Shown here in pieces: positions 6,371 through 44,480 of a stretch of DNA of 64,000 nt; within the stretch, counting starts at the first letter, position 1; each line of letters begins with the position of its first letter. The translations under genes were made by a program, and so were the position numbers. The DNA comes from Caenorhabditis elegans (Eukaryota; Nematoda; Chromadorea; Rhabditida; Rhabditidae). The stretch covers positions 14,012,001 through 14,076,000 of the forward strand of contig NC_003283.11 in NCBI RefSeq assembly GCF_000002985.6. The letters are read 5' to 3'. The notes below the pieces were generated by a model. That model saw nothing but the letters and a program-made list of their open reading frames with translations. It did not search any database and was not told the origin of the DNA.

Positions 6371-6619
6371 TTAATGAGCAGCCTGAGCACATTCGCAGTT
6401 GGCACACTTGCATCCTCCGGCACATCCAGATTTGCAGCATTTCTTCTCACTGGCAGTTGGGCAGCAGTATTGCTCACAGCACTTGGCGTCGGAGCAATCG
6501 CAATCTTTAGTTCCGGTGTTGCAGGAACAATTTTGGTTTTTGCAGTCTGGGAAAGGGGGTTTCATTCAAAATTAATTAAAAGCGTAATGAAATTTCAACT
6601 TACCACACTTGCAGACCAT
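6371..6619 (-). CDS. mtl-2: Metallothionein MTL-2
   Basis: Two exons: a 16-base first exon (6619-6604, MVCKC) and 6546-6371, giving 63 residues. The protein is packed with Cys in C-x-C, C-x-x-C and CC pairs and is free of aromatic residues apart from one Tyr. It matches C. elegans metallothionein MTL-2 as I remember it. It binds Zn/Cd/Cu thiolate clusters in intestinal cells. The short first exon and small intron match the known gene organisation. The protein is intact. Confidence 0.96.
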
Positions 6620-25500: not shown

Positions 25501-26349
25501 CATTGGCACAATGCCAGGCTGACAGTTGAAATTTAAAAGACGAGTTACAAAACCATTCCATCCTTCCGGAGTTGAACCTTCACTTGGCGAAGTGGTTGTC
25601 TTATCTTTTTGCATTGTCATAGAAAAATACTCGTTTCGAACAGAAAAGAATACCATTTCACCAACGCATCTGTAATTTATTCTATCTTTAATTTGTTTCA
25701 TAAACTTTTGTACCTTATAGATGTTGGAGTATCCAAGAAAACTGGATTATAATCCAATGCAACTTCTATAAATTCTTTGTGGCCATCTTTCTCTCCCCAT
25801 TTGAATAAATATAACTTCTTTCGTGACGAAACAATTACGTACAGGTCTCCAGATGTCTGAAAACAAAAATATTGAATAGAAAATTCGGAAAGTTTCCAAT
25901 GAACCTTGGGTGAAAATCTTGCAAAAGTCTGAACAGGCTTCACTTTGTGAATTAATGTTTCAACTTTATACTCTGGATCGCTGAGCTTGTGAGCCATCAA
26001 TTGACCGTCGGACACGCACAAAAGGAGATCTTCACGTTGGCAAACTTTCAGTTCCATTACTGCTTTCTTGTGAAAGCTTTTGCAGATATTTGTGAGCTCG
26101 AATCCACGACGATCTGTAATTTATCAATATTTAGAAATAGATTTCTTGACGATTAAATATTACTAGCTGAAATTGTGTATGCATAGAGATGTCCTGCTCT
26201 TCCACCGGCTAACAAGGTTTGATTCGATTCTGAAAGCAATCATGATTGTAAATTCCAGTGATTTGATATTGAAAACCTTGAAATGCAAGACATGTTACTT
26301 CTACGGGTAATCGGAGAGCTACTTCGCAAGGCGTGTATGCATCGTACAT
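22593..26349 (-). CDS. vps-39: VPS39, HOPS tethering-complex subunit
   Basis: Ten minus-strand exons: 26349-26277, 26229-26164, 26113-25905, 25856-25714, 25669-25377, 25324-24956, 24902-24622, 24576-24045, 23988-23405 and 22805-22593. They join in frame into about 920 residues. The N-terminal half is a citron-homology/beta-propeller region (DAYTPCEVALRLPVEVTC, VKPVQTFARFSPK, FSVRNEYFSM). The middle is an alpha-solenoid (HERHFELAIQLAENSN-type, KMLVDSLIRLQSNAC). The C-terminus has the Vps39 zinc-binding segment (ECVVCEKKIAVSAFVRYPDG, YCH). It acts with Rab7 in late endosome/lysosome fusion. The start lies only ~130 bases from the edge of the giant inverted repeat. Intron 9 (592 bases) hosts a palindromic element. 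Confidence 0.93.
22979..23352. mobile_element. Palindromic MITE in the last vps-39 intron
   Basis: Inverted arms of about 75 bp: TTTGACATGCCTGCTTAAAG...GTAGTCTTT from 22979 matches, with a few differences, the reverse complement of 23275-23352 (TTTGACATGCCTTCTTGAAAG on the minus strand). The AT-rich centre has no ORF. It is a non-autonomous foldback element that enlarged this intron. Confidence 0.75.
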
Positions 26350-26505
26350 TTTGCTTTGGTGGGTCGAAGTACCTGAAATGAAATTAAAACTGAAAATTAT
26401 GACAGTAATATAGAGAAGAATAAATTTTCGCAAATAAATAATGCCGAATAATCAAAACAATTATTTGTGTCTCGAAAAAACAGACTTCAAATTATCGTTC
26501 CCGAA

Positions 26506-26903
26506 GAGGGGGTACGCTTTCGTAAGGGGATTTTTTCGTAAGGAACGCTTTCAGTAGGGCAATGTGCGGCGCGCCTTTTCGCAAGCCCGCCGCACAGTCC
26601 TTCGCAATCGATTCGAAATCGATTGAAACCCGTTTTTGTCATCGAAAATTCTGAAAATATCCGTATTTAGCTCGAATAAAACTAATTAATTTCCATTAAA
26701 AATCCGTTTTTAATTGAATTCCGTTCGAAATTTCCTGTTGGAAAAATAAATAAATAAATACGAAGAAGCGTGCGGCGCATTGCAAAAAGCCGTGCGGCGC
26801 ATTGCGAAGGACTGTGCGGCGGGCTTGCGAAAAGGCGCGCCGCACATTGCCCTACTGAAAGCGTTCCTTACGAAAAAATCCCCTTACGAAAACGTACCCC
26901 CTC
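26506..26903. mobile_element. hAT-like non-autonomous element, left arm only
   Basis: The 398 bp element starts GAGGGGGTACGC and ends with its near-complement GTACCCCCTC. Terminal inverted repeats of ~100 bp include GTGCGGCGCGCCTTTTCGC. The 8 bp TTCCCGAA occurs immediately outside both ends (26498-26505, 26904-26911), a target duplication of the hAT/P size. The mirror site in the right arm is empty, so it inserted after the arms were duplicated. No ORF. Confidence 0.88.
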
Positions 26904-27389
26904 TTCCCGAAGTGCTCGACGAGTAAACGCGCTCCATTGAACACTTTTTTCGCGCGCATTCAAATTTAGTTTTTTCATGCCTCCAATATTTTTGTATGGA
27001 AAATTGATCGTTTCGCACTGAATTTGTAAATTTTGGAAGAAAATTTTTAACCAAAAATGCTGAAAAAAAAAATTAAAATTAAATTCTTGAAAAAAAATAA
27101 ATTTTTTTCACATTCCAAAAATCACAGATAAGACTACAAAATATCATGAGGGCCACTCCTCGGAAAAAGCTGGGAAAAAAGACAATATTCAAGTCGACTT
27201 GGAAACATTCGTAGCCTGTTTTTTTTCAGGAATCGAAAATCAGCAGAACTCTACACATCATCAGTGCATTGAGAAGACAATATAATACGTTTATAAATTG
27301 GAAAATTTATTATTAATATTATTCACTTTATTATAATTAAACTTAAAAAAAATAAATATTAACAAAGTTATTAAGAGAGCGGACGCATT

Positions 27390-28242
27390 TTGTGCAGTGG
27401 AGGTGGGTCGCCCTTTTCTGCAAAATCCAGGAGTTCGAGACGAAGAAGTGGATGAAGAAGGCGGTGGAGGTGGACTATCTGAAAATTTTCCAATTTAAAA
27501 ACCTAGGGGAGACTGAATTTTCGGACTTTTACATAAATCTGACTGACCAAGAGAAAAAAATCCGATTTTTGTAGGAAATCCAGGAGTTCGAGATGAAGAA
27601 GTTGATGAAGATGTTGGTGGTGATGAAATATCTGAAATGTTTTAATTTAAAAACCTAGGGAAGGCTGACTTTTCGGATTTTTACATAAATCTGACTGACC
27701 AAGAAAAAAAAATAGGGGTTTTGGCAGATCCAGGAGCTGGAGACGAAGAAGCTGATGAAGATGGTGGACGTGGTGGACGATCTGAAATGTTTCAATTTAA
27801 AAACCTAGGAAAGACTGAATTTTCGGAATTATACATCAATTAAACTGACATAGAGAAAAAATCCGATTTTTGTAGAAAATCCCGTCGTTCCAGGCGAAGA
27901 AGTGGATGAAGGTGTTGGTGGTGATGGAATATCTGAAATGTTTCAATTTAAAAACCTAGGAAAGACTGACTTTTCGGAATTATACATCAATTAAACTGAC
28001 ATAGAGAAAAAATCCGATTTTTGTAGAAAATCCCGTCGTTCCAGGCGAAGAAGTGGATGAAGGTATTGGTGGTGATGGAATATCTGAAATGTTTCAATTT
28101 AAAAACCTAGGAAAGACTGACTTTTCGGAATTATACATCAATTAAACTGACATAGAGAAAAAATCCGATTTTTGTAGAAAATCCCGTCGTTCCAGGCGAA
28201 GAAGTGGATGAAGGTGTTGGTGGTGATGGAATATCTGAAATG
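27390..28242 (-). repeat. ~140 bp tandem array (possible micro-exons), left arm
   Basis: About five adjacent units of ~140 bp lie here, and further units follow the LINE at 31966-32170. On the minus strand each unit reads as a strong acceptor (ACATTTCAG or AATTTTCAG), then a Pro/Ser/Thr-rich segment (PSPPTPSSTSSPGT, RPPRPPSSSASSSPAPG, SPPPPPSSSTSSSRTPG). A possible donor (GTCAGT, GTAAAA or GTATAAT) follows, then a short intron containing CCTAGGTTTTTAAATT. Units do not all keep one frame. It may be a repetitive Pro-rich exon array or its relic. The mirror copy is in the right arm. Confidence 0.65.
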
Positions 28243-28852
28243 CCCCTCTACTGAACCGTCAATTCTTTCAAACAGCAATGTCTACAATCAGAAGCCAGCG
28301 AATCGTGATCTATATTCCTCGGTGATGAAGAAGAACCCTGTGCTGAAGAAAGTTGTCGAATCGATTAATCTGGTATCTACTGCTCATTCCTTTGAGAAGA
28401 AATCGAATCTAGCTGTTCTGGAAAACCTGCCCGATGCGAAAAACCCGGATCAAGTTAGTTCCGATTTTAATCTGGTTAAATCTTTCTCCCTTGAATTCTC
28501 TCTCCCTGTTCCCACTGAAGTTTTTAGAGTTGCTACCAAAAATTCCAAAATCATTTCCCGGCCAACTAAAGTTCGTTTCAATTCTGAATCCCTTCGCGAT
28601 GAATTTCTTACCGGTTTCTATAAAAATTGGCGCAACTTTTCCTCTATTCCGCAATCTCCTCGACCGATCCGTGCGCGTAGGGACTTGACTCCCCTCGAGC
28701 TTGTCGCGCTTCGTGAACTCCGTAAGGAGGCCTACGAAGCGAACCAGGCTGCGGGCTGCATTGCGCACGTTATCCGGGATCTTGAAATTGTGGACCTGAT
28801 CTATCCTCGTCCTTTTCCGATGAACCCAATTTCAATCCCTCTCGCCGCATAG
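28243..28852 (+). pseudogene. LINE ORF1 remnant, left copy
   Basis: This is an open frame of about 200 codons ending at 28852, with the 5' part lost to truncation of the element. Seen: a basic and Ser-rich protein, ATKNSKIISRPTKVRFNSESL, ending in DLIYPRPFPMNPISIPLAA. ORF1 of CR1-type elements encodes a nucleic-acid-binding chaperone; here no zinc knuckle remains. The apparent upstream Met lies in flanking array sequence and is not the real start. Confidence 0.65.
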
Positions 28853-29498
28853 GGAGACGGCCGCCTGACACTGAATGATTTAACGCCTCTTTCAAATGAC
28901 ATCCCAACACAACAAACATCACAATTAAATACAAAACTTAAACATAACTCAAAGGCGGCTCTCGTCTGTGTTTCAAAGCCCAAGCTGGTTAATTGCATGT
29001 AGGCTAATGCTCGTTCCATTGCATCGCTTGAAAAACTTGAATTTGTCCATAAGTTCGTAGCCTCTAATAGTTTAGACATCTTGTTTGTTACCGAAACATT
29101 TCTAAGTAATGCTTTTACTGATTTCTCATGCTCTTCACCTCACTATACCTGCATAAGATCTGATCGGCTTGAGTGCCATCCAAAAAATGCGGCGGAGGTA
29201 CTGCTGTGTTTTTTCATAAAAAATGGGCTCTTACGCCTGTCTCAATTGCACCTTCCTTTTATCTCTCGCATTTTTGTCAAATTCTGGCATTAGACCATAA
29301 GCAATCCAAAACTAGATTTATACTGATATACCGCCCCCATCCACTACCGCAAGTAGAACCGCTGAGCTCTTTAAAAATCTAAACCAGCTTCTCGACTGCC
29401 CCTCCTATACTTATGTCCTCCTCGGTGATTTCAATTTTGCAAACACCAAGTGGAATTCAAATTTTCTTCCCACGGGCTCTGAGTATTTCTATAATTGG

Positions 29499-31739
29499 AT
29501 GAAATTTCATGATCTGGCACAAATGGTAAATTTTCCGACTCGGTTTTCCAAATTAAACAGTGGCACGTTTCTTGATCTCATATTTACAAATAATTCCGGT
29601 GTTTTACAAAATTTAAAACCGGGTACTCCATTTATAAACTCAGATCATATTTCCATTTTCTTCTCCTTATCTCTCCCCCAGCCCACTCCTGCTCATTCTG
29701 CCCCTCCCAAGTCTTTTATGAATTTCAGAAAATGTGATTTTTTCAACCTCAATGGATACATGGTGTCATACAATTGGCCTAAACAGCTATCATTCTTTGC
29801 TCCACCTGATTCTAAGCTTAATCATTTTCTCAACATTTTTAATGAGCTTATCTCTGATTTCACTCCCCAATATCCAACATTAAGAGTTCAAAGTCCAAAA
29901 GTTACAGGTAGGAAATTATACAGAAAACTTCGTAAGCATCACCCAGACACTGAATCCTCAGTTTTGAAAAAGAGAGTTAAATCAAGATTAAAATTCCTCA
30001 AAAAGAAAAATATGGCTTTTGAAAATAAATTAATTCACTCTAAGAACTCTAAAAGTCTATTCTCTTACATTAGAAATCGTATAAAGCCTTCCAGTTCTCT
30101 CACTCATTTCTCTGTAGACAATAATAATGTTGATAAACCGATTGAAATGGCGGAAGTATTAGTTAAAGAGTTTTCAAAAAGTTTTGTTACTCATGATCCA
30201 CCCTTCCCAACTTTTCCTTCCTGTGAGAGCACACCGTCCCCAGTAGATACATCGCCATTAACTATCGCGAGTACCATTCTTAAACTAAAACCCAAAATAG
30301 GTTATTCCCTTGACAACATAAATTTTTTTATTTTAAAAAAGTGCTGCGATTCCATTTCTATTCCTTTATCTCTAATTTTTAAAGAATTCATAACTACGAA
30401 TTCATTCCCATCCTGCTGGAAAACCTCAATTGTGATACCTGTACACAAAAAGGGCAACAGTAGTGACCCCAAAAACTATAGGCCCATAGCCTTGACTCAT
30501 CCATTGTCCAGATTATTCGAAAGAATAGTATTAAATCCTACCAGGAAAACATTCTCCCATAAGATATCCAAATTTCAGTTTGGATTCTTAAACAATAGAT
30601 CGTGTATAACTGCCCACCTAAATGCTTCATCTAATTACCATAAAATTCTTTCGGTACCCAATCAGTTTGTTGATATTATCCTTTTCGATTTCGCTAAGGC
30701 GTTCGATTCGGTGCCACACGAGCTTCTTTTATGCAAATTGAGAAACTTCGGTTTCGATGATAACATTTGCTTGTGGTTTAAAGCCTTTATATCAGATCGC
30801 GTCTCAAAAGTGAAAATTGGTGATTCCTTGTCAAATTCTTCCTTCAAGAACTCTTCTGGTGTCCTACAAGGCACTGTCACTGGACCCTTTCTTTTTTTGG
30901 TCTATATAAATGACCTTCTTGATCTATTCCCCCCTGATGTTCACGTTATTGCATTTGCCGACGACCTCAAACTTTTCAGCAATAACTGTCAAAGCTTGCG
31001 GTCATCTATAAAAATAATTGAAAACTGGTGTAAAATTTGGCAGCTCAAGCTAGCCGAAAATAAAACAAAGGTACTTCATGTTGGTAAGAAAAACCCAAAA
31101 TATAAATATTATGTAAACGGACAAAATATTGAATGTTGTTCTAAAGCCTGTGATCTTGGCATATGGGTCGATGATCAATTAGCTTATGAAAAACACATTC
31201 TAGTCAAAGTAAATGCAGCAATGTTTAAATGCCGCCAAATACTCAAAAACTTCCGCTCTCTTAATATGATGTTCTACTTCAAATTATTTAATACTTATAT
31301 TAGACCAATTCTGGAATACGGATGTGAAATTTATCATCCTAAATCTGCTTCCCTGACCAAAAAATTAGAGCAGCCCCTACGTTACTTTTCTAGGCATGTT
31401 TTCAAGAAATGTAAAACTCAATACGATTCATATGAGCATCGCCTCAATCAGTCAAACCAGCAGTCCTTGAAGCACAGACGAGTCTTCCTTATATTGAAAA
31501 CATTCCACAACATAATAACCGGCAAATATCATTTTCCAAATCTAGCCCTCTATCTTAAAAATTCCAAATCTCCCCGGTTTCCATATCAAATGACTGCAAT
31601 AGGCAAAACAAATAACAACAGTTTTCTCCACACACATCTTACAATATGGAATTTAGTAACAAAACATTTCCCGGTGCCAGTGTCAGGCTATACGTTCTCC
31701 AAGCGCATTTCTTGCCTCCCTCTTGAATCTTATGTATGA
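29499..31739 (+). CDS. LINE reverse transcriptase (ORF2 3' part), left copy
   Basis: The 746-codon open frame is the 3' part of ORF2. The end of the endonuclease-like region (FPTRFSKLNSGTFLDLIFTN, NSDHISIFFSL) is at residues ~10-60. The RT domain has KNYRPIALTHPLSRLFERI, QFGFLNNRSCITAHL, DFAKAFDSVPHELL (Asp ~397), VLQGTVTGPFLFLVYINDLL, AFADDLKLFS (FADD at residues 486-489) and LKLAENKTKVLHVGK. A thumb/C-terminal region follows (TYIRPILEYGCEIYHP). Catalytic residues are intact, but the upstream endonuclease is broken, so the Met at 29499 is not the native start and the element is probably immobile. Confidence 0.85.
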   Translation: MKFHDLAQMVNFPTRFSKLNSGTFLDLIFTNNSGVLQNLKPGTPFINSDHISIFFSLSLPQPTPAHSAPPKSFMNFRKCDFFNLNGYMVSYNWPKQLSFFAPPDSKLNHFLNIFNELISDFTPQYPTLRVQSPKVTGRKLYRKLRKHHPDTESSVLKKRVKSRLKFLKKKNMAFENKLIHSKNSKSLFSYIRNRIKPSSSLTHFSVDNNNVDKPIEMAEVLVKEFSKSFVTHDPPFPTFPSCESTPSPVDTSPLTIASTILKLKPKIGYSLDNINFFILKKCCDSISIPLSLIFKEFITTNSFPSCWKTSIVIPVHKKGNSSDPKNYRPIALTHPLSRLFERIVLNPTRKTFSHKISKFQFGFLNNRSCITAHLNASSNYHKILSVPNQFVDIILFDFAKAFDSVPHELLLCKLRNFGFDDNICLWFKAFISDRVSKVKIGDSLSNSSFKNSSGVLQGTVTGPFLFLVYINDLLDLFPPDVHVIAFADDLKLFSNNCQSLRSSIKIIENWCKIWQLKLAENKTKVLHVGKKNPKYKYYVNGQNIECCSKACDLGIWVDDQLAYEKHILVKVNAAMFKCRQILKNFRSLNMMFYFKLFNTYIRPILEYGCEIYHPKSASLTKKLEQPLRYFSRHVFKKCKTQYDSYEHRLNQSNQQSLKHRRVFLILKTFHNIITGKYHFPNLALYLKNSKSPRFPYQMTAIGKTNNNSFLHTHLTIWNLVTKHFPVPVSGYTFSKRISCLPLESYV

Positions 31740-32313
31740 TCTCATTTCCTCACTCATTTGTACATGATGTCATATTTTTTTATTTTTTTATTTTTTTATT
31801 ATTTTTTTCTCATCAACTTTTCTTGGAAATCATTTGTATCATCTGACCTCGGACATGTTCCAATCGTGTCACCTTATCATTCACATTTCTTACCTCATCT
31901 CATTTTTATTCCTCATTTTGCTCTTAATTTTCAAGGCAAGAAATAGTGAATAAATAAATTAAATTAAATGTTTCAATTTAAAAACCTAGGGAAGGCTGAC
32001 TTTTCGGAATTAAACATCAATTAAACTGACATAGAGAAAAAAATAGGGTTTTCTGGCAGATCCAGGAGCTGGAGACGAAGAAGCTGATGAAGATGGCGGA
32101 CGTGGTGGACGATCTGAAATTTTTCCATTTATAAACCTAGGAAAGACTGAATTTTCGGATTTCTACATGAGTTTTACTATTGAAAAATCCCGATTTTCGT
32201 AGAATTTTTTTAAAAACATTTCGAAGCGTGGGAACGTTATAGGGGGTCGTACTAGAGACAATTGGAAATTGAGATAATTAGAGAAAAGTCCTGAAAAAGT
32301 AGGTCATGGGAAA

Positions 32314-33217
32314 ATGAGCACTGAAACTCACTATAAAAGGCAACTTTTTGTAATTTTGAAACTTTTTATCATCATGTCATTCATGACAAAATGCCCAAAA
32401 TGTCCAACTTACGAATCTAAGAAGACTACCAATGTGTATCGACACCTTCGGGAAGTGCATAATGCGAGTGAGGCTGAAGTTGATCAATTCCGAATTCAGA
32501 GAAAAGAAGGTAAATCCTTGACGACAAAAGGCAGTGGAGCGTGGAAGTGTCCCGTATGCGAACTAGTTATTCCAACAGAGAAAGGCTTGAAGAACCATAT
32601 GAACCAGAAGCACAGGAAGAAGCCCATCGATCCTTCGACAATCACTCTTGCTACAACGTCGCCCACAATGGTCTCGCCTCCTCCCAAGGTATTCTATCTG
32701 AAAATTTAAAACATTAAATATAAGTAATTACGTTTCAATTATGACAATTTGATCAGTTTCAGAACAATTTTTCAGAGAATCCAGCTACCCAAATCGACGG
32801 AAAAATCGCTTGTTTCTTCAGTAGCTACAGTTCGAGCCCAACCAACTCAGAAACCAGGAGGAAGGTACAAATGCCCTGTGGAAAACTGTACTTTCTTCAA
32901 GACAAGGAAGGAATTAGCGCTTCATTTCTCAGAAAAACATGATCCTGGATCTGAGCTGGAAACTATGAGCTTCGAAACGGAAACTGAGTTCAAAGTAATT
33001 TTGCAATTTTCCGGCCAGTAATTTTAGATTTTTTTTGAAGATTTGGCTCACCTGTCGACAAGAAGAGACGTGTAGTAGCATGCAGATCTCTCTCAGCTCT
33101 CACGATGGAAACCGCATCACCCATTTTCGCCTCTGCAGACACGAAGGAGGCCAACTCTCCCTAGGGGCAACAAAAAAGGGGGCAACATTTGAACTCTCCC
33201 TGGGGGCAACAAATTAG
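32314..33217 (+). CDS. C2H2 zinc-finger protein, left-arm copy
   Basis: Exons are about 32314 (or the Met at 32374) to 32687, then about 32775-32994, then about 33039-33217. Three Cys2His2-type fingers are visible: CPKCPTYESKK...RHLREVH, CPVCELVIPTEKG...HMNQKH and CPVENCTFFKTRKELALHFSEKH. A Pro/Thr linker lies between the second and third. The tail contains a short duplicated segment (LSLGATKKGATFELSLGATN). It is probably nuclear and DNA-binding; I do not recognise a named gene. It converges on the MSP-like gene and is duplicated identically in the right arm. It could be transposon-borne. The third exon is the least certain. Confidence 0.62.
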
Positions 33218-33445
33218 GGGGCAACATTTTTAATAAGTATATTCAATGGCGAACAAGTTTTTATTTTCCAACCTTTTGATAATTTAATAAAAAATTCGTC
33301 CAAATTTGAAGACAAATTTTAAAATTTCGACAATTAAAACAAATAGAAACAAAAAAAATAACCAAATAGAAACAAACAAATAAAGCACTACTAAATTATG
33401 AAAAACCTAAATTTAGCTTAATGGAACAGAACAGAACAGTAGCAG

Positions 33446-34196
33446 TCAATCAGAATCAGAGTCCACAATGTTTCTTCTCTTGGCAGAAGGCGAAGAAGTA
33501 GATGAAGAGCCAGACGATGATGGTATTGAGTGAATTGGTGATTCCTGTGATCTTCTGAAGTGGTATTGGTTATAAAGTTTAGAATTTTTGAAAACACAAA
33601 AGGTACTTACCCTTTAATATCAATAACTATTTTTTCCATCTCTGAAAAACATCCGTTGGCCAAGTCATTATCACTATCCACTGTTTTGTAAGAGATAGTC
33701 ATTTGATCTGATTCAGACTTTCCGGTAGGTCGACAAATCAAAGCGATTTCGCATTTACTCTTCGGTATAACAGTTCCGAAAGAGGGCACAATAGTGTAGT
33801 CTCTGTAGTTTTTGTAATCAATTTTGTATTCAATTTGGAATAGCGACTCGTTTTCAAGGAAAAACTGTTGAATATCATCTGATTCGCTTGTTGTCAAAGA
33901 TGTTACATTGCTTCTTAAAAAAGCAGGCTCAGGAATACTATTTTCAGTTGATTCCGATAGACGTTGTCTCTTTTGCTTGTTTCTGAAAAGTACTTGATAG
34001 TTGACACAGTAAAAAGTCTGAAATACCTCAAACGAGAAGATCGACGACATTGCCCCTACGCATTTTCACCGGTGAAGCTGACAATGCTGGTTTCACTACT
34101 GAGAGATTCATCTCCAAGCACTCCATCAGTCGTGGTGAGACTATCATTGGAATATATCGCCTGCGACATAGAAGAATTTGCCGGACTTGTATGCAT
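33446..34196 (-). CDS. Small protein with MSP-like segment, left-arm copy (fuller 5' context)
   Basis: Minus-strand exons 34196-34060, 33982-33611 and 33554-33446 join in frame. The N-terminal region is Ser/Thr-rich (SNDSLTTTDGVLGDESLSS). Next comes KQKRQRLSES (basic, NLS-like). The middle segment FQIEYKIDYKNYRDYTIVPSF...ALICRPTGKSESDQMTISYKT resembles the beta-sandwich of major-sperm-protein domains. The tail is Ser-rich, ending KRRNIVDSDSD. MSP resemblance is by pattern only. Upstream exons probably continue into the spacer (34326-34959), which only this copy retains. Confidence 0.55.
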
Positions 34197-34325
34197 CCTG
34201 CAAAAAAATTGTTTTAAGATAAATCTACGAATGGATACCCAAGGAGGGATCGGGAATGATTTCCTTTCGAACGATATTTGTACTTTCTTTTATGTCTTCT
34301 AGCTTGAGTTTTGTTAATCATTGTT

Positions 34326-34959
34326 CTCTCTCAATATCCGACTGAAAATGTTGATGCATAGACGACATGTGAATTGAATGCTTTCTTTCGGAAATCACTA
34401 TCGGCATTAGCAATCACTGCGCACCTAAATAAGAAAAACACTTTAACCGCAAATAGCCTTTTCCTCACAAGTGGATTAGGGCTGTGCGGCTGATGACTCG
34501 GCTGTTGGAGCAAATCAACGTTTTTCAACGTATTAGCAATGATCAATTAGGGAATACTTGTATTTGCCATATCGGCTGAGTCTTGAGCTTCTAATTCTAG
34601 AAAAAAGTTTTTAAAAAAGTGCACACACCTTCCAGAAAAACTCGTTTTTCCAATCAGCCGACAGCCGACAGCCGAGTTACTCGGCTGATTCAAAAAGCCG
34701 ACTGTTTTGTCAAGGTGTGTGCACTTTATAAAAACTTTTTTTCTAGAATAAGAAGCTCATGACTCAGCCAATACTGCAAATACAAATATTCTTTAATTGA
34801 TCAGTGCTAACACGTTGAAAAACTTGATTGTCTCCATCAGCCGAGTCATCAGCCGCACAGCCCTAAAGTGGATACACATTTTTGGAAGATTTGCTTTGCA
34901 TTTCGTAGATGAGCAATTCATGAGTTTTGTGTCTTCATCAATTTGAACAGTTACAAATC
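34326..34959 (-). pseudogene. Exons with SWIM-like Cys/His motif split by a transposon
   Basis: On the minus strand an exon opens at 34959 after an ATTTTCAG acceptor: FVTVQIDEDTKLMNCSSTKC, then KANLPKMCIH, where a 389 bp element interrupts it at 34866. Beyond the element (34476 downward) a GTGAGG donor, a 44-base intron and a second exon (34424-34331: AVIANADSDFRKKAFNSHVVY) follow. The spacing C-x4-C-x6-C-x-H, then AV, resembles SWIM zinc fingers found in Mutator-type transposases and some nuclear proteins. It lies upstream of, and in the same orientation as, the MSP-like gene. Confidence 0.5.
34477..34865. mobile_element. hAT-like palindromic MITE in the palindrome spacer
   Basis: The 389 bp element has terminal inverted repeats starting TAGGGCTGTGCGGCTGATGA and extending, imperfectly, over most of its length. 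The centre has CAGCCGACAGCCGAC...GTCGGCT. The 8 bp AAGTGGAT is present on both sides (34469-34476, 34866-34873). The target duplication size suggests hAT-type mobilisation. It interrupts an exon. Confidence 0.87.
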
Positions 34960-35019
34960 TGAAAATTGTTAGTGGCTTAAAAAATACTTCAAACTCGGCA
35001 AACACTCTTTGATTACCTT

Positions 35020-35350
35020 CTCTTTGACTACCTTTTGCTCATTGACTATCTCAGATCAATTACTACCTTTCGGCTCATTGACTTCCTTTGCTCATTGACT
35101 ACCTCAGATCATTGACTACCTTTCGGCTCATTGACTACCTTCAGTTGCTCATTGACTACCTTTATCTAATTTTTCAGAATTTTCAGTTTTTTTCGCTGAA
35201 AAATCAGGATTTTCAATAACATGTTACTTTTTGATGTCTAAGAAGGTCGTGCACTTTCTCATTTCCTGAAATTCCGGAAAAAATGGAGATGAGATCTGAT
35301 ATATAAATGCTCATTGACTACCTTCAAATGCTCTTTGGCTACCTCTATCT
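35020..35350. repeat. Tandem CTCATTGACTACCTT repeats
   Basis: About eight imperfect copies of a ~17-24 base unit, CTCATTGACTACCTT(T/C), lie at 35020-35165 and resume at 35310-35350. Simple local expansion in the spacer; no coding potential. Confidence 0.75.
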
Positions 35351-35559
35351 AATAAAATTTTCCAAAATTTATTTTTTTGAAAACTTTTCAAAATTTGATC
35401 AGATATTATAGAAAAGTGCAATTTTTGTCGTTTTTCTAGTTCGGATGTTCTGCACACTATTGCAGACGAAAACCTGAGGTATAGTAGAACACCTAAGCTC
35501 AAAAAACGCACTCACTTCGGATGCCGATATCTCCGTGGAAAATTTTTTTATGACAAAGT

Positions 35560-35757
35560 GATCAACTACAAAGTTGTATATCTTAATCTGAAGTACAACT
35601 TTGTAGTTGATTGTTTTTTATCAAAAAATTTGTTGGTTGAGATATGAACAGAAAAAGAAGAAGAAAATACAAGCATGAAGGTGCCAAACTTTACACAACT
35701 TTATCTCGACTAACCAATTCTACTATACTCTCTACTCGTTCGTTCGTTCGTTCGTTC
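35560..35757. repeat. Small hairpin, dispersed repeat and TTCG microsatellite at the inner junction
   Basis: CAACTACAAAGTTGTA faces TACAACTTTGTAGTTG at 35563-35612. The block 35635-35708 is shared with 1980-2056. A (TTCG)n tract of about seven units at 35731-35757 abuts the start of the right arm; the left arm has just one TTCG at the mirror position. The microsatellite sits exactly at the inner breakpoint. Confidence 0.75.
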
Positions 35758-35837
35758 GTTCGTTCGAAAGGAAATCATTCCCGATCCCTCCTTGGGTATC
35801 CATTCGTAGATTTATCTTAAAACAATTTTTTTGCAGG

Positions 35838-36588
35838 ATGCATACAAGTCCGGCAAATTCTTCTATGTCGCAGGCGATATATTCCAATGATAGTCTCACC
35901 ACGACTGATGGAGTGCTTGGAGATGAATCTCTCAGTAGTGAAACCAGCATTGTCAGCTTCACCGGTGAAAATGCGTAGGGGCAATGTCGTCGATCTTCTC
36001 GTTTGAGGTATTTCAGACTTTTTACTGTGTCAACTATCAAGTACTTTTCAGAAACAAGCAAAAGAGACAACGTCTATCGGAATCAACTGAAAATAGTATT
36101 CCTGAGCCTGCTTTTTTAAGAAGCAATGTAACATCTTTGACAACAAGCGAATCAGATGATATTCAACAGTTTTTCCTTGAAAACGAGTCGCTATTCCAAA
36201 TTGAATACAAAATTGATTACAAAAACTACAGAGACTACACTATTGTGCCCTCTTTCGGAACTGTTATACCGAAGAGTAAATGCGAAATCGCTTTGATTTG
36301 TCGACCTACCGGAAAGTCTGAATCAGATCAAATGACTATCTCTTACAAAACAGTGGATAGTGATAATGACTTGGCCAACGGATGTTTTTCAGAGATGGAA
36401 AAAATAGTTATTGATATTAAAGGGTAAGTACCTTTTGTGTTTTCAAAAATTCTAAACTTTATAACCAATACCACTTCAGAAGATCACAGGAATCACCAAT
36501 TCACTCAATACCATCATCGTCTGGCTCTTCATCTACTTCTTCGCCTTCTGCCAAGAGAAGAAACATTGTGGACTCTGATTCTGATTGA
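35838..36588 (+). CDS. Small protein with MSP-like segment, right-arm copy (5'-truncated)
   Basis: Exons 35838-35974, 36052-36423 and 36480-36588 are the mirror of 34196-33446 with the same reading frame and no disabling change seen. Unlike the left copy, sequence upstream of 35754 is unrelated (microsatellite and dispersed repeat), so any upstream exons were not carried along. If it is expressed it needs a new promoter or the Met at 35838. Domain content is as in the left copy. Confidence 0.5.
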
Positions 36589-36816
36589 CTGCTACTGTTC
36601 TGTTCTGTTCCATTAAGCTAAATTTAGGTTTTTCATAATTTAGTAGTGCTTTATTTGTTTGTTTCTATTTGGTTATTTTTTTTGTTTCTATTTGTTTTAA
36701 TTGTCGAAATTTTAAAATTTGTCTTCAAATTTGGACGAATTTTTTATTAAATTATCAAAAGGTTGGAAAATAAAAACTTGTTCGCCATTGAATATACTTA
36801 TTAAAAATGTTGCCCC

Positions 36817-37720
36817 CTAATTTGTTGCCCCCAGGGAGAGTTCAAATGTTGCCCCCTTTTTTGTTGCCCCTAGGGAGAGTTGGCCTCCTTCGTGTCTGCA
36901 GAGGCGAAAATGGGTGATGCGGTTTCCATCGTGAGAGCTGAGAGAGATCTGCATGCTACTACACGTCTCTTCTTGTCGACAGGTGAGCCAAATCTTCAAA
37001 AAAAATCTAAAATTACTGGCCGGAAAATTGCAAAATTACTTTGAACTCAGTTTCCGTTTCGAAGCTCATAGTTTCCAGCTCAGATCCAGGATCATGTTTT
37101 TCTGAGAAATGAAGCGCTAATTCCTTCCTTGTCTTGAAGAAAGTACAGTTTTCCACAGGGCATTTGTACCTTCCTCCTGGTTTCTGAGTTGGTTGGGCTC
37201 GAACTGTAGCTACTGAAGAAACAAGCGATTTTTCCGTCGATTTGGGTAGCTGGATTCTCTGAAAAATTGTTCTGAAACTGATCAAATTGTCATAATTGAA
37301 ACGTAATTACTTATATTTAATGTTTTAAATTTTCAGATAGAATACCTTGGGAGGAGGCGAGACCATTGTGGGCGACGTTGTAGCAAGAGTGATTGTCGAA
37401 GGATCGATGGGCTTCTTCCTGTGCTTCTGGTTCATATGGTTCTTCAAGCCTTTCTCTGTTGGAATAACTAGTTCGCATACGGGACACTTCCACGCTCCAC
37501 TGCCTTTTGTCGTCAAGGATTTACCTTCTTTTCTCTGAATTCGGAATTGATCAACTTCAGCCTCACTCGCATTATGCACTTCCCGAAGGTGTCGATACAC
37601 ATTGGTAGTCTTCTTAGATTCGTAAGTTGGACATTTTGGGCATTTTGTCATGAATGACATGATGATAAAAAGTTTCAAAATTACAAAAAGTTGCCTTTTA
37701 TAGTGAGTTTCAGTGCTCAT
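36817..37720 (-). CDS. C2H2 zinc-finger protein, right-arm copy
   Basis: Mirror copy of 32314-33217 with no protein difference seen: three Cys2His2-type fingers and the duplicated LSLGAT tail. Exons are about 37720-37347, 37259-37040 and 36995-36817. Both copies keep open frames, so either or both could be expressed. The expected transcript pair is complementary through the shared inverted repeat. Confidence 0.6.
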
Positions 37721-38294
37721 TTTCCCATGACCTACTTTTTCAGGACTTTTCTCTAATTATCTCAATTTCCAATTGTCTCTAGTACGACCCCCTATAACGT
37801 TCCCACGCTTCGAAATGTTTTTAAAAAAATTCTACGAAAATCGGGATTTTTCAATAGTAAAACTCATGTAGAAATCCGAAAATTCAGTCTTTCCTAGGTT
37901 TATAAATGGAAAAATTTCAGATCGTCCACCACGTCCGCCATCTTCATCAGCTTCTTCGTCTCCAGCTCCTGGATCTGCCAGAAAACCCTATTTTTTTCTC
38001 TATGTCAGTTTAATTGATGTTTAATTCCGAAAAGTCAGCCTTCCCTAGGTTTTTAAATTGAAACATTTAATTTAATTTATTTATTCACTATTTCTTGCCT
38101 TGAAAATTAAGAGCAAAATGAGGAATAAAAATGAGATGAGGTAAGAAATGTGAATGATAAGGTGACACGATTGGAACATGTCCGAGGTCAGATGATACAA
38201 ATGATTTCCAAGAAAAGTTGATGAGAAAAAAATAATAAAAAAATAAAAAAATAAAAAAATATGACATCATGTACAAATGAGTGAGGAAATGAGA

Positions 38295-40535
38295 TCATAC
38301 ATAAGATTCAAGAGGGAGGCAAGAAATGCGCTTGGAGAACGTATAGCCTGACACTGGCACCGGGAAATGTTTTGTTACTAAATTCCATATTGTAAGATGT
38401 GTGTGGAGAAAACTGTTGTTATTTGTTTTGCCTATTGCAGTCATTTGATATGGAAACCGGGGAGATTTGGAATTTTTAAGATAGAGGGCTAGATTTGGAA
38501 AATGATATTTGCCGGTTATTATGTTGTGGAATGTTTTCAATATAAGGAAGACTCGTCTGTGCTTCAAGGACTGCTGGTTTGACTGATTGAGGCGATGCTC
38601 ATATGAATCGTATTGAGTTTTACATTTCTTGAAAACATGCCTAGAAAAGTAACGTAGGGGCTGCTCTAATTTTTTGGTCAGGGAAGCAGATTTAGGATGA
38701 TAAATTTCACATCCGTATTCCAGAATTGGTCTAATATAAGTATTAAATAATTTGAAGTAGAACATCATATTAAGAGAGCGGAAGTTTTTGAGTATTTGGC
38801 GGCATTTAAACATTGCTGCATTTACTTTGACTAGAATGTGTTTTTCATAAGCTAATTGATCATCGACCCATATGCCAAGATCACAGGCTTTAGAACAACA
38901 TTCAATATTTTGTCCGTTTACATAATATTTATATTTTGGGTTTTTCTTACCAACATGAAGTACCTTTGTTTTATTTTCGGCTAGCTTGAGCTGCCAAATT
39001 TTACACCAGTTTTCAATTATTTTTATAGATGACCGCAAGCTTTGACAGTTATTGCTGAAAAGTTTGAGGTCGTCGGCAAATGCAATAACGTGAACATCAG
39101 GGGGGAATAGATCAAGAAGGTCATTTATATAGACCAAAAAAAGAAAGGGTCCAGTGACAGTGCCTTGTAGGACACCAGAAGAGTTCTTGAAGGAAGAATT
39201 TGACAAGGAATCACCAATTTTCACTTTTGAGACGCGATCTGATATAAAGGCTTTAAACCACAAGCAAATGTTATCATCGAAACCGAAGTTTCTCAATTTG
39301 CATAAAAGAAGCTCGTGTGGCACCGAATCGAACGCCTTAGCGAAATCGAAAAGGATAATATCAACAAACTGATTGGGTACCGAAAGAATTTTATGGTAAT
39401 TAGATGAAGCATTTAGGTGGGCAGTTATACACGATCTATTGTTTAAGAATCCAAACTGAAATTTGGATATCTTATGGGAGAATGTTTTCCTGGTAGGATT
39501 TAATACTATTCTTTCGAATAATCTGGACAATGGATGAGTCAAGGCTATGGGCCTATAGTTTTTGGGGTCACTACTGTTGCCCTTTTTGTGTACAGGTATC
39601 ACAATTGAGGTTTTCCAGCAGGATGGGAATGAATTCGTAGTTATGAATTCTTTAAAAATTAGAGATAAAGGAATAGAAATGGAATCGCAGCACTTTTTTA
39701 AAATAAAAAAATTTATGTTGTCAAGGGAATAACCTATTTTGGGTTTTAGTTTAAGAATGGTACTCGCGATAGTTAATGGCGATGTATCTACTGGGGACGG
39801 TGTGCTCTCACAGGAAGGAAAAGTTGGGAAGGGTGGATCATGAGTAACAAAACTTTTTGAAAACTCTTTAACTAATACTTCCGCCATTTCAATCGGTTTA
39901 TCAACATTATTATTGTCTACAGAGAAATGAGTGAGAGAACTGGAAGGCTTTATACGATTTCTAATGTAAGAGAATAGACTTTTAGAGTTCTTAGAGTGAA
40001 TTAATTTATTTTCAAAAGCCATATTTTTCTTTTTGAGGAATTTTAATCTTGATTTAACTCTCTTTTTCAAAACTGAGGATTCAGTGTCTGGGTGATGCTT
40101 ACGAAGTTTTCTGTATAATTTCCTACCTGTAACTTTTGGACTTTGAACTCTTAATGTTGGATATTGGGGAGTGAAATCAGAGATAAGCTCATTAAAAATG
40201 TTGAGAAAATGATTAAGCTTAGAATCAGGTGGAGCAAAGAATGATAGCTGTTTAGGCCAATTGTATGACACCATGTATCCATTGAGGTTGAAAAAATCAC
40301 ATTTTCTGAAATTCATAAAAGACTTGGGAGGGGCAGAATGAGCAGGAGTGGGCTGGGGGAGAGATAAGGAGAAGAAAATGGAAATATGATCTGAGTTTAT
40401 AAATGGAGTACCCGGTTTTAAATTTTGTAAAACACCGGAATTATTTGTAAATATGAGATCAAGAAACGTGCCACTGTTTAATTTGGAAAACCGAGTCGGA
40501 AAATTTACCATTTGTGCCAGATCATGAAATTTCAT
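38295..40535 (-). CDS. LINE reverse transcriptase (ORF2 3' part), right copy
   Basis: 746-codon frame identical in translation to the left copy, with an intact FADD catalytic box, DFAKAFDS and YRPIAL motifs. The upstream endonuclease section (40536-41060) carries the same stop and frameshifts as the left copy. Function is probably lost at element level. Confidence 0.85.
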   Translation of the reverse strand: MKFHDLAQMVNFPTRFSKLNSGTFLDLIFTNNSGVLQNLKPGTPFINSDHISIFFSLSLPQPTPAHSAPPKSFMNFRKCDFFNLNGYMVSYNWPKQLSFFAPPDSKLNHFLNIFNELISDFTPQYPTLRVQSPKVTGRKLYRKLRKHHPDTESSVLKKRVKSRLKFLKKKNMAFENKLIHSKNSKSLFSYIRNRIKPSSSLTHFSVDNNNVDKPIEMAEVLVKEFSKSFVTHDPPFPTFPSCESTPSPVDTSPLTIASTILKLKPKIGYSLDNINFFILKKCCDSISIPLSLIFKEFITTNSFPSCWKTSIVIPVHKKGNSSDPKNYRPIALTHPLSRLFERIVLNPTRKTFSHKISKFQFGFLNNRSCITAHLNASSNYHKILSVPNQFVDIILFDFAKAFDSVPHELLLCKLRNFGFDDNICLWFKAFISDRVSKVKIGDSLSNSSFKNSSGVLQGTVTGPFLFLVYINDLLDLFPPDVHVIAFADDLKLFSNNCQSLRSSIKIIENWCKIWQLKLAENKTKVLHVGKKNPKYKYYVNGQNIECCSKACDLGIWVDDQLAYEKHILVKVNAAMFKCRQILKNFRSLNMMFYFKLFNTYIRPILEYGCEIYHPKSASLTKKLEQPLRYFSRHVFKKCKTQYDSYEHRLNQSNQQSLKHRRVFLILKTFHNIITGKYHFPNLALYLKNSKSPRFPYQMTAIGKTNNNSFLHTHLTIWNLVTKHFPVPVSGYTFSKRISCLPLESYV

Positions 40536-41181
40536 CCAATTATAGAAATACTCAGAGCCCGTGGGAAGAAAATTTGAATTCCACTTGGTGTTTGCAAAAT
40601 TGAAATCACCGAGGAGGACATAAGTATAGGAGGGGCAGTCGAGAAGCTGGTTTAGATTTTTAAAGAGCTCAGCGGTTCTACTTGCGGTAGTGGATGGGGG
40701 CGGTATATCAGTATAAATCTAGTTTTGGATTGCTTATGGTCTAATGCCAGAATTTGACAAAAATGCGAGAGATAAAAGGAAGGTGCAATTGAGACAGGCG
40801 TAAGAGCCCATTTTTTATGAAAAAACACAGCAGTACCTCCGCCGCATTTTTTGGATGGCACTCAAGCCGATCAGATCTTATGCAGGTATAGTGAGGTGAA
40901 GAGCATGAGAAATCAGTAAAAGCATTACTTAGAAATGTTTCGGTAACAAACAAGATGTCTAAACTATTAGAGGCTACGAACTTATGGACAAATTCAAGTT
41001 TTTCAAGCGATGCAATGGAACGAGCATTAGCCTACATGCAATTAACCAGCTTGGGCTTTGAAACACAGACGAGAGCCGCCTTTGAGTTATGTTTAAGTTT
41101 TGTATTTAATTGTGATGTTTGTTGTGTTGGGATGTCATTTGAAAGAGGCGTTAAATCATTCAGTGTCAGGCGGCCGTCTCC

Positions 41182-41791
41182 CTATGCGGCGAGAGGGATT
41201 GAAATTGGGTTCATCGGAAAAGGACGAGGATAGATCAGGTCCACAATTTCAAGATCCCGGATAACGTGCGCAATGCAGCCCGCAGCCTGGTTCGCTTCGT
41301 AGGCCTCCTTACGGAGTTCACGAAGCGCGACAAGCTCGAGGGGAGTCAAGTCCCTACGCGCACGGATGGGTCGAGGAGATTGCGGAATAGAGGAAAAGTT
41401 GCGCCAATTTTTATAGAAACCAGTAAGAAATTCATCGCGAAGGGATTCAGAATTGAAACGAACTTTAGTTGGCCGGGAAATGATTTTGGAATTTTTGGTA
41501 GCAACTCTAAAAACTTCAGTGGGAACAGGGAGAGAGAATTCAAGGGAGAAAGATTTAACCAGATTAAAATCGGAACTAACTTGATCCGGGTTTTTCGCAT
41601 CGGGCAGGTTTTCCAGAACAGCTAGATTCGATTTCTTCTCAAAGGAATGAGCAGTAGATACCAGATTAATCGATTCGACAACTTTCTTCAGCACAGGGTT
41701 CTTCTTCATCACCGAGGAATATAGATCACGATTCGCTGGCTTCTGATTGTAGACATTGCTGTTTGAAAGAATTGACGGTTCAGTAGAGGGG
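41182..41791 (-). pseudogene. LINE ORF1 remnant, right copy
   Basis: Mirror of the left ORF1 remnant, open for about 200 codons with the 5' part lost. The silent or conservative base differences from the left copy seen here are the clearest evidence that two physical copies exist. Confidence 0.6.
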
Positions 41792-42740
41792 CATTTCAGA
41801 TATTCCATCACCACCAACACCTTCATCCACTTCTTCGCCTGGAACGACGGGATTTTCTACAAAAATCGGATTTTTTCTCTATGTCAGTTTAATTGATGTA
41901 TAATTCCGAAAAGTCAGTCTTTCCTAGGTTTTTAAATTGAAACATTTCAGATATTCCATCACCACCAATACCTTCATCCACTTCTTCGCCTGGAACGACG
42001 GGATTTTCTACAAAAATCGGATTTTTTCTCTATGTCAGTTTAATTGATGTATAATTCCGAAAAGTCAGTCTTTCCTAGGTTTTTAAATTGAAACATTTCA
42101 GATATTCCATCACCACCAACACCTTCATCCACTTCTTCGCCTGGAACGACGGGATTTTCTACAAAAATCGGATTTTTTCTCTATGTCAGTTTAATTGATG
42201 TATAATTCCGAAAATTCAGTCTTTCCTAGGTTTTTAAATTGAAACATTTCAGATCGTCCACCACGTCCACCATCTTCATCAGCTTCTTCGTCTCCAGCTC
42301 CTGGATCTGCCAAAACCCCTATTTTTTTTTCTTGGTCAGTCAGATTTATGTAAAAATCCGAAAAGTCAGCCTTCCCTAGGTTTTTAAATTAAAACATTTC
42401 AGATATTTCATCACCACCAACATCTTCATCAACTTCTTCATCTCGAACTCCTGGATTTCCTACAAAAATCGGATTTTTTTCTCTTGGTCAGTCAGATTTA
42501 TGTAAAAGTCCGAAAATTCAGTCTCCCCTAGGTTTTTAAATTGGAAAATTTTCAGATAGTCCACCTCCACCGCCTTCTTCATCCACTTCTTCGTCTCGAA
42601 CTCCTGGATTTTGCAGAAAAGGGCGACCCACCTCCACTGCACAAAATGCGTCCGCTCTCTTAATAACTTTGTTAATATTTATTTTTTTTAAGTTTAATTA
42701 TAATAAAGTGAATAATATTAATAATAAATTTTCCAATTTA
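41792..42740 (+). repeat. ~140 bp tandem array (possible micro-exons), right arm
   Basis: Plus-strand mirror of the left array; further units lie at 37865-38068 beyond the LINE. The last unit (from 42556) reads SPPPPPSSSTSSSRTPGF, then KGRPTSTAQNASALLI, and runs open to a stop near 42740. This suggests that this end is the 3' end of a Pro/Ser-rich gene. The three units nearest the LINE are almost identical (one or two changes), so the array was expanding recently. Confidence 0.62.
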
Positions 42741-44119
42741 TAAACGTATTATATTGTCTTCTCAATGCACTGATGATGTGTAGAGTTCTGCTGATTTTCG
42801 ATTCCTGAAAAAAAACAGGCTACGAATGTTTCCAAGTCGACTTGAATATTGTCTTTTTTCCCAGCTTTTTCCGAGGAGTGGCCCTCATGATATTTTGTAG
42901 TCTTATCTGTGATTTTTGGAATGTGAAAAAAATTTATTTTTTTTCAAGAATTTAATTTTAATTTTTTTTTTCAGCATTTTTGGTTAAAAATTTTCTTCCA
43001 AAATTTACAAATTCAGTGCGAAACGATCAATTTTCCATACAAAAATATTGGAGGCATGAAAAAACTAAATTTGAATGCGCGCGAAAAAAGTGTTCAATGG
43101 AGCGCGTTTACTCGTCGAGCATTTCGGGAACGATAATTTGAAGTCTGTCTCGAAAAATTACAAAATCATGTGACATTGTTAAAAGAAAATTAGGTGCTTG
43201 TTGTCCGTATGGAGTACACGGCTGCGTGGCCGATATTTCTTCGGCCACCATGCGGCGAAAGACCACAGGGCAGACGCAACGCAGACAAACATACAAAATT
43301 ATCACAAGATTTGGAATTTCTTCTGATTTACATTTAAATTACCAGCCGCTGACCGTGCCTCCGGCGCCGCCAACAACTGGATCACAGCGCCTCAAATCGG
43401 GAGAGAACAACGAAAAAAGTGGTTTTGGCGCGGGAGCGCGTTTGCTGCAGACGTCGCACGAATTGGAATTAATGTGTAGCAAAACAGTAAAATATCGCGT
43501 TTTTGCTGGATTTTAGGGATTTTAAAGCAATTTTCAACATGCGGGACCGCCCAGAGACTGTTCGCGATGCGATTTACTTCATTTTAATATAAATTTTTCC
43601 CCAAATAAGCTCGAAATGAGCTCTGAATTTCGGCGAATCTGAAAATTTTTTTTGACCAAAAACAGAATTTTGCAAATAAAAATTGATTTTAGAGCAATTT
43701 ATTGCATAAATATTCCATTAGAATTTTTACTAATAGTTTGAATCTTTTTAAAGAGTTTTAGTCATTAATTTGACTGATAACACAGAAAAATGATTTTTCT
43801 TTACAACGAAATCGATAAAAAAGTAAAGCAACATTTATCAAGGGAAATCTTGCACAATTGGTTAAAAACTTTTATGAAATCCAAGATTTCACTAGAATAA
43901 AGCTACAAATTAATCAAAATCACTAAAAATACAAATAATTCTGATCAAATTTCAATGTTCCAATCTACCAATGGATCTATGCCACGCCAAATTTCTTATG
44001 TAAGTGTTGTCTCCAATTTTCCTTAAAAAATGACTCAACTACTCACATAAATGATCAAATTAACATTTTTTACAAGTTTGGTGTTATATTTTCTTTTCCT
44101 TAATAAGAAACCATCAGGT

Positions 44120-44480
44120 TCTTCCTACTCTCTACGGCTCTAGATACCTTAACTTCGACAACTCCTATCTTTTCGGAGAGGCGAGATATCAACAAGTGAT
44201 CAACTGAAAACTTGTTGAGCACATCAAAAACTATAATATTCAATTTAACCTACGTTTTTATCTTTCAAGATGGGGGAGTTAGACTTACATTTGTATTGCA
44301 TACTTTTTGTTATTCTACTGGCTGCTCTAACTCCCTCATCTTAAGAGATAAACGCATGATTTGAATTAATTATTATAGTTTTTGATATGTTCTACAATTT
44401 CTTAGTTAATCACTTTTTGATATCTTGCCTCTCTGAGGAGATAGGAGTTGTCGAAGTTACAGTATCTATAGCTATACGCA
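44120..44480. mobile_element. Palindromic MITE
   Basis: Arms of about 150 bp: AACTTCGACAACTCCTATCT...GAGGCGAGATATCAA (from 44149) faces TTGATATCTTGCCTCTC...AGATAGGAGTTGTCGAAGTT (to about 44461) in inverted orientation. Complementary inner pieces also match (GGGGGAGTTAGA / TCTAACTCCCTCAT). No ORF, so it is a non-autonomous foldback. Confidence 0.75.

Follow-up and report, generated by a model that had tools for sequence, protein, structure and literature searches.

Mutator-like elements (MULEs), among them the foldback-type Tm1 elements of root-knot nematodes (PMC3169594), form families in which copies with a MULE transposase are accompanied by non-autonomous derivatives, and which share 9-bp target-site duplications and terminal inverted repeats (TIRs) of variable length. 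The cause of this length variation is stated to be unclear in a study (PMC6446971), in which TIRs of 14–500 bp were analysed, with a table entry of up to 613 bp. Here we describe a 16.7-kb palindrome of Caenorhabditis elegans, contained in a 64,000-nt stretch of chromosome V (NC_003283.11, forward-strand positions 14,012,001–14,076,000; hereafter the window, whose numbering is used below). It is a transposon-bounded, symmetrised MULE-like element, whose 7.4-kb arms are far longer than the inverted repeats of the MULEs in the analysed set of that study. It is similar to Tm1 and other MULEs in its 9-bp duplication and in its membership of a family with related copies, but it differs from them in that the window copy lacks a catalytic domain and both of its ends are left ends.

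Other described systems resemble the palindrome in part. In the Galileo element of Drosophila willistoni (P superfamily; PMC4168063) the terminal repeats likewise become longer, both through recruitment of internal sequence and through foreign transposons that enter one repeat and are transferred to the other; however, Galileo belongs to another superfamily, produces duplications of 7–8 bp, and its second-longest repeats reach ~1.6 kb, as compared to 7.4 kb here. The palindrome would, in addition, have recruited nearly a whole half-element, with one junction. Long inverted repeats and a nearly palindromic structure are known also from the foldback elements Tc4, Tc5 and Tc6 of C. elegans, but these are far shorter and make duplications of 2–3 bp instead of 9 bp. 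The gap filling described for Pack-TIR elements and the FoSTeST model (PMC8277862) both assume that the template is switched while a TIR transposon is being repaired or replicated, with microhomology at a breakpoint; there, however, foreign DNA is captured between the repeats, whereas the palindrome appears to have copied its own half in inverted orientation. The gene-pair palindromes of the same genome (PMC1803023) also exhibit near-identical inverted arms, but the examples considered involve host genes and are common to other Caenorhabditis, whereas the palindrome described here is bounded by transposon ends.

Architecture of the palindrome

The element spans positions 26480–43148, i.e. 14,038,480–14,055,148 of the current chromosome V. 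Its outer transposon is called A and a second one, nested within it, is called B; other features involve a long interspersed nuclear element (LINE), several open reading frames (ORFs) and a fragment of a gene for a major sperm protein (MSP). The main parts are:

26471–26479: left copy of the 9-bp target-site duplication CTCGAAAAA
26480–34274, plus strand: left arm, the ancestral side, of 7,389 bp, to which a later insertion with its duplication adds 406 bp; colinear with the related locus L043 beyond its inner edge
26506–26903: 398-bp inverted-repeat element GAGGGGGTACG..., left arm only, with 8-bp duplications TTCCCGAA
34275–35759: spacer, colinear with the left arm and composed of the rest of the MSP-locus DNA, a small inverted-repeat element, B internal DNA and most of a CGAA run
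35760–43148, minus strand: right arm, an inverted copy of the left arm, with A end, LINE, zinc-finger ORFs (37013–37306 and 37325–37756), B end (36690–36885) and MSP ORF (35969–36427)
43149–43157: right copy of the 9-bp target-site duplication CTCGAAAAA

The inverted copies 26904–34274 and 35760–43130 (7,371 bp each) are reverse complementary and enclose a spacer of 1,485 nt, in agreement with the 1.48 kb given by the original prediction, which had been made from the sequence alone. Extended to the outer ends 26480 and 43148, the arms measure 7,389 bp, once 406 bp of the left-arm insert and duplication are discounted, and the inverted repeats make up 14.8 of the 16.7 kb, i.e. most of the element, as in foldback transposons. 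The two ~7.37-kb arms are of equal length, as predicted, but they do not match at every base: three positions differ (26912/43122, 28612/41422 and 28666/41368). Likewise, the mirror symmetry of coordinates (sum 70034) holds inside 26904–43130 and breaks outside it, at the 398-bp insertion in the left arm. This insertion is flanked by TTCCCGAA at 26498 and 26904, and because it is confined to one arm, it most likely entered after the palindrome had formed. Tc6 was our initial guess for its identity, but the 8-bp duplication speaks against it. Long near-identical palindromes are generally hard to clone and to assemble, and a single arm might have been entered twice in the reference; nevertheless, the three base differences, the one-sided insertion with its own duplication, and the flanks, which differ on the two sides, make such an assembly artefact the least credible of all the explanations considered here.

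Both outer ends read ACAGACTTCAAATTATCG... and each is abutted by CTCGAAAAA. The direct repeat that had been proposed as a target-site duplication is real, but its length is 9 bp; the apparent 10–12 bp result from the element ending in TGT and the left flank having TGT ahead of the 9-mer. Chance does not give a 7.4-kb inverted repeat, and the ends of this one are transposon termini with a duplication, which bears out the view that the locus is not a chance inverted duplication. The duplication does not, however, demonstrate mobility of the whole 16.7 kb, as had been supposed, because an older, ordinary A insertion made symmetrical in place leaves the same trace.

Element A and its dispersed relatives

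The 21-base terminus of A has 12 matches in the genome with up to three mismatches, six of them exact (two in the palindrome, four outside), and a variant terminus, ACAGACTTCAAATTAATGCG, has 12 matches with up to two mismatches, ten of them exact; the reversed controls returned 0 and 0 in both cases. A genome search for the arm ends had been suggested as a check of the transposon interpretation, and it recovered copies at other places in the genome that have these ends and, in two further elements, 9-bp duplications. The end does continue into unrelated DNA elsewhere, which had been named as a sign of simple inverted duplication, but only in the manner expected of a transposon, i.e. the copies stop at the same base beside different flanks. 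Among the four A copies with both ends examined, the 9-bp duplication is present in three: the window element, L048 (exact, CTTTATTAG) and L042 (ACTGAAACA, with two extra bases).

The closest copy of A is L039 (chromosome IV by contig order, 770,113–772,896; L039 2614–5397), whose left end agrees to 98.3% over 400 bp with the end of the right arm, which is identical to that of the left arm. The two ends of L039 are unlike each other: its left and right 400 bp agree to 51.9%, as compared to a mean of 51.5% and a maximum of 53.7% when one end of L042, shuffled 20 times, was compared with the opposite end of that element, and ~15 terminal bases are common to both. The window element carries two left-type A ends. 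The same holds for L042 and L048, whose own two ends agree to 87.2% and 88.1%, respectively, and are 65–69% similar to the window end; L061 and L062, with one A end each in the stretch analysed, were left out of these counts. Judging from these comparisons, symmetrical A derivatives either arose more than once or spread as a subfamily. When the right-end stretch of L039 was compared with the other loci (five overlapping loci left out), only 21–25 bp of terminus were found, in L048 and L061, along with an unrelated 40-bp match in L043 and L015.

Two additional repeats accompany the family. A dispersed repeat (35358–35719) forms an inverted pair inside the left-left elements L042 and L048, and occurs as a single copy in the spacer of the palindrome. 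L062 contains it as well, and so does L041, where it lies beyond the A end. A stretch of ~4.75 kb with CACGGT...ACCGTG ends lies inside an A terminus (L050 1500–3021 and L040 1–2979; C4:4180204-4184979), and a similar stretch adjoins the A copy in L041, on another chromosome.

MULEs typically make target-site duplications of 8–11 bp, in most cases 9 bp, and have conserved terminal inverted repeats; such repeats recur in the dispersed copies of A, and three of the four copies examined at both ends have the 9-bp duplication. The gene exons of L039 read as the database protein F56B3.9, the one record recovered among 1,155 candidates for protein homologues of the A gene. The gene encodes C2H2/BED-like fingers followed by a region with relatives elsewhere in the genome, and resembles the N-terminal part of a MULE-type transposase; a DDTH motif is located past its annotated part, close to the right terminus. 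F56B3.9 and the spliced L039 stretch show no MULE match in Pfam. Joining the exons of L065, a relative of this gene on chromosome IV, by guessed splicing with an X at one frame break yielded matches to PF10551 (MULE) with 34.9 bits against a cut-off of 27.6 and to PF21056 with 30.1 bits against 27.2; L065 is linked to A by relatedness of the gene, not by termini. Scanned singly, its ORFs reached at best 20.1 bits (PF21056), below the cut-off of 27.2. A direct genome search with PF10551 returned 0 candidates, perhaps because the exons were searched apart. Element A nonetheless appears MULE-like, because dispersed copies of it have 9-bp duplications and the gene of a sister copy resembles the N-terminus of a MULE-type transposase, so that the MULE relationship originally suggested is upheld, on other evidence.

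The window copy contains zinc-finger N-terminal exons (ORFs 32278–32709 and 32728–33021 in the left arm) and no MULE DDE transposase was found in it; it would be a non-autonomous derivative. SWIM zinc fingers are present in some groups of MULEs, and a SWIM-like Cys/His motif in the spacer had been cited in support of the MULE affiliation, but it was not corroborated: no SWIM zinc finger was found by Pfam in the spacer ORF or among the arm ORFs scanned. The ORF taken as its source (34793–35038, minus strand) has no Pfam match at E ≤ 10, and the Cys-Ile-His part is read from the duplication beside the small transposon of the spacer and from adjoining bases, which are absent from L043.

L039 itself looks like an internally deleted A element, in which F56B3.9 has retained its N-terminal zinc fingers, whereas the catalytic part seems to be missing from a point immediately behind DDTH. 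By analogy with the KP protein of the P element, which is a repressor of transposition, the F56B3.9 product could be a repressor as well. Another relative of the A gene is located near the left end of the X chromosome (C6:141089-141982). The AC8 genes, also on X, have been listed as MuDR elements repressed by nuclear RNA interference (RNAi) under heat (PMC4714518), which does not imply their identity with this relative.

Nested order, polarity and formation

The interior of the left arm and the spacer contain the following features:

26480–28242, plus strand: left end of the MULE-like element A, terminus ACAGACTTCAAATTATCGTTCCCGAA, with a minisatellite of 151-bp period at ~27414–28242; interrupted by the 398-bp insert
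28243–31965, plus strand: non-LTR (lacking long terminal repeats) retrotransposon (LINE), with an endonuclease and reverse transcriptase ORF at 29316–31739
31966–33148, plus strand: continuation of A with exons of the F56B3.9-like gene, 99.24% to L039
33149–33344, plus strand: terminus of element B, GGCCAACTCTCCCT..., which cuts an exon of the A gene
33607–34065, minus strand: MSP-domain ORF (Pfam Motile_Sperm, 6.8e-9), behind the B end
34477–34865: small inverted-repeat element in the spacer, with 8-bp duplications AAGTGGAT at 34469 and 34866
34996–35719: internal sequence of B (34996–35611 is 91% to L046), overlapping the dispersed repeat 35358–35719
35735–35766: putative template-switch junction; CGAACGA, which occurs in the left arm too, has grown here into a series of CGAA repeats

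The LINE encodes a reverse transcriptase (Pfam RVT_1, 5.3e-33), and many of its other copies end near the same 3' point; its boundaries were taken from the comparison with L039, and AAATG is a possible target duplication. It sat in A before the arm was duplicated. Element B is likewise MULE-like: its copies L045 and L046, the two loci with the exact B terminus at both ends, are flanked by the 9-bp duplications CACGTATGC and TACCTATCA. No transposase of B was found, although no search was aimed at one. The MSP ORF has one other match in the genome outside the palindrome, L043 (C5:18817974, 89% at the amino acid level), which likewise adjoins a B end.

The join between a B end and an MSP-domain gene fragment is found in two loci (window 33149–34996 and L043 2961–4389); the opposite edge of the fragment in the window shows a microhomology of CTC. 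Element B with its MSP fragment is a candidate Pack-MULE, as judged from this arrangement. PMC8277862 reports no Pack-MULE in its 100 animal reference genomes and one family (Ssk-FB4) in fly populations.

The polarity of the duplication can be read from L043, whose alignment starts at 33149, crosses the inner edge of the arm (34274) without a break and ends at 34442. This colinearity across the edge identifies the left arm and the spacer as the ancestral side, and the right arm as its inverted copy. The flank of B is repeated on the other side in inverted form (TCCTTCGTG) and not as a direct duplication; hence, the palindrome arose after B was in place. At the junction, the left arm reads ...CCTTTCGAACGA and the right arm ...CCTTTCGAACGAACGAACGA..., i.e. 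microhomology with slipped repeats. One might suppose instead that two separate, related A elements in inverted orientation were later homogenised by arm-to-arm gene conversion, a process that has been proposed for C. elegans palindromes (PMC1803023), and that the outer duplication is due to chance. We find this very improbable, as there is one junction, it lies inside B, the B flank is inverted, and one and the same 9-bp duplication is found at both outer ends (chance of ~4e-6 for a given 9-mer with equal bases).

The boundaries, the 9-bp duplication, the nested order, the polarity, the left-left ends and the junction are established by the sequence; the route of repair in place is an inference. 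In our opinion, a single MULE-like A insertion was probably, though by no means certainly, made symmetrical in place, its right half being replaced by an inverted copy of the left half. According to this scenario, A would have inserted 130 bp upstream of a vps-39-like gene and duplicated CTCGAAAAA; the LINE and element B with its MSP gene fragment would then have come to lie in A. When a break or a stalled fork in the right part of B was repaired, synthesis may have switched to the left half, used as an inverted template, by means of the microhomology CGAACGA. Copying would then have proceeded outwards for 7.4 kb and ended where the ~15 bp common to the left and right ends of A allowed the newly made strand to rejoin the original right end. 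Rejoining within these shared bases would explain why the copied sequence extends precisely to the end of the transposon and why the flanking duplication is kept; both ends of the resulting element would be left ends, and its terminal inverted repeats would be 7.4 kb long. The template-switch route requires one event and retains the original duplication.

The main rival, which corresponds to the original prediction and resembles the FoSTeST model (PMC8277862), assumes that the palindrome formed elsewhere by fork stalling and template switching, and that a MULE transposase then moved the whole 16.7 kb here. It is in keeping with the exact termini and the duplication, with the existence of related left-left elements, L042 and L048, that have duplications at other sites, and with the position of the element at the 5' side of a gene, where Pack-MULEs are reported to insert preferentially (PMC10015627). 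However, it requires two events and a mobile unit of 16.7 kb, and neither a donor nor a second copy of a whole arm was found elsewhere in this genome among the 40 of 64 candidates scored. We regard such transposition as a unit as possible but doubtful. A search with the joined flanks revealed no paralogous empty site: the 35 matches correspond to the two flanks themselves and to 33 short repeat matches at query positions 398–473.

Several observations weigh against symmetrisation in place. Cut-and-paste transposition of a ready-made palindrome would give the same duplication, and no further copy would remain in that case either. Symmetrical forms are probably able to move, given that L042 and L048 have duplications at different sites. 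No target-site duplication is present at the ends of L039, the nearest sister copy, so that its right end could be rearranged. Finally, gene conversion may preserve the identity of palindrome arms in C. elegans (PMC1803023), and if so, the three differences between the arms need not mean a recent origin. For that reason we do not rely on the age of ~75,000 generations estimated from 3 differences in 7,389 bp, as gene conversion could make the palindrome look younger. The mutation rate used in this estimate is 2.7e-9.

With regard to the variable length of MULE terminal repeats, the locus is of interest in that the nearest asymmetric relative, the ancestral and the copied side, the junction and the retained duplication are all readable in one genome.

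Germline silencing and neighbouring genes

The locus appears to coincide with a known silenced region. Table 1 of PMC4367959, which gives the 16 largest clusters whose silencing in the germline depends on HRDE-1, includes chrV:14039000-14055000 (WS190), filed under LINE2H and with the genes T08G5.9, T08G5.8, T08G5.7, F58D12.5 and T08G5.19; in the GRH (histone mark H3K9me3) column, 15 clusters are positive and this one alone is negative. Provided that WS190 and the current assembly are little shifted against each other, the bins reported as silenced cover the whole palindrome and go no further than its two ends. The nest of LINE and MULE-like elements, arranged as an almost perfect inverted repeat, offers a possible structural reason for the silencing of this cluster: the inverted arms may supply double-stranded or antisense RNA, which would help to make the locus a target of nuclear RNAi. 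On the other side of the balance, the WS190 coordinates may be shifted, short reads from the two arms are hardly distinguishable, the LINE alone may explain the silencing, and the authors of PMC4367959 come to the conclusion that retrotransposons, but not DNA transposons, are silenced by nuclear RNAi in the germline. The words 'inverted', 'palindrom' and 'hairpin' are absent from the main text of that article, which is also the only place in the literature where the gene names of this locus were met, subscription papers and supplements being beyond the search.

It is tempting to generalise these observations, although we consider the generalisation unlikely as it stands: the A family may repeatedly turn asymmetric MULEs into palindromes with two left ends, the present locus being a giant and little-diverged case, and the symmetry may be self-silencing, in that any transcript entering the arms would give antisense or hairpin RNA for germline nuclear RNAi, which could account for the H3K9me3-negative status. 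If true, this would mean that the long terminal inverted repeats of foldback MULEs arise as a side effect of gap repair and, by their very presence, cause these elements to be silenced. As many wild isolates of C. elegans have been sequenced, the mechanism of birth of the palindrome and the idea of its silencing are directly testable.

Outside the palindrome, three features deserve mention:

23336–26349 (far end approximate), minus strand: vps-39-like host gene (Vps39_1 90 bits, CNH 60.2 bits)
44137–44472: a further inverted repeat of 147 nt (82%), whose arms are 42 nt apart
6371–6565: metallothionein ORF

The likely ATG of the vps-39-like gene is located at 26349, 130 bp from the element. The inverted repeat lies ~1 kb beyond the right end of the palindrome. 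The metallothionein ORF falls inside the coordinates published for mtl-2 (chrV:14,018,270-14,018,673; PMC12239621).

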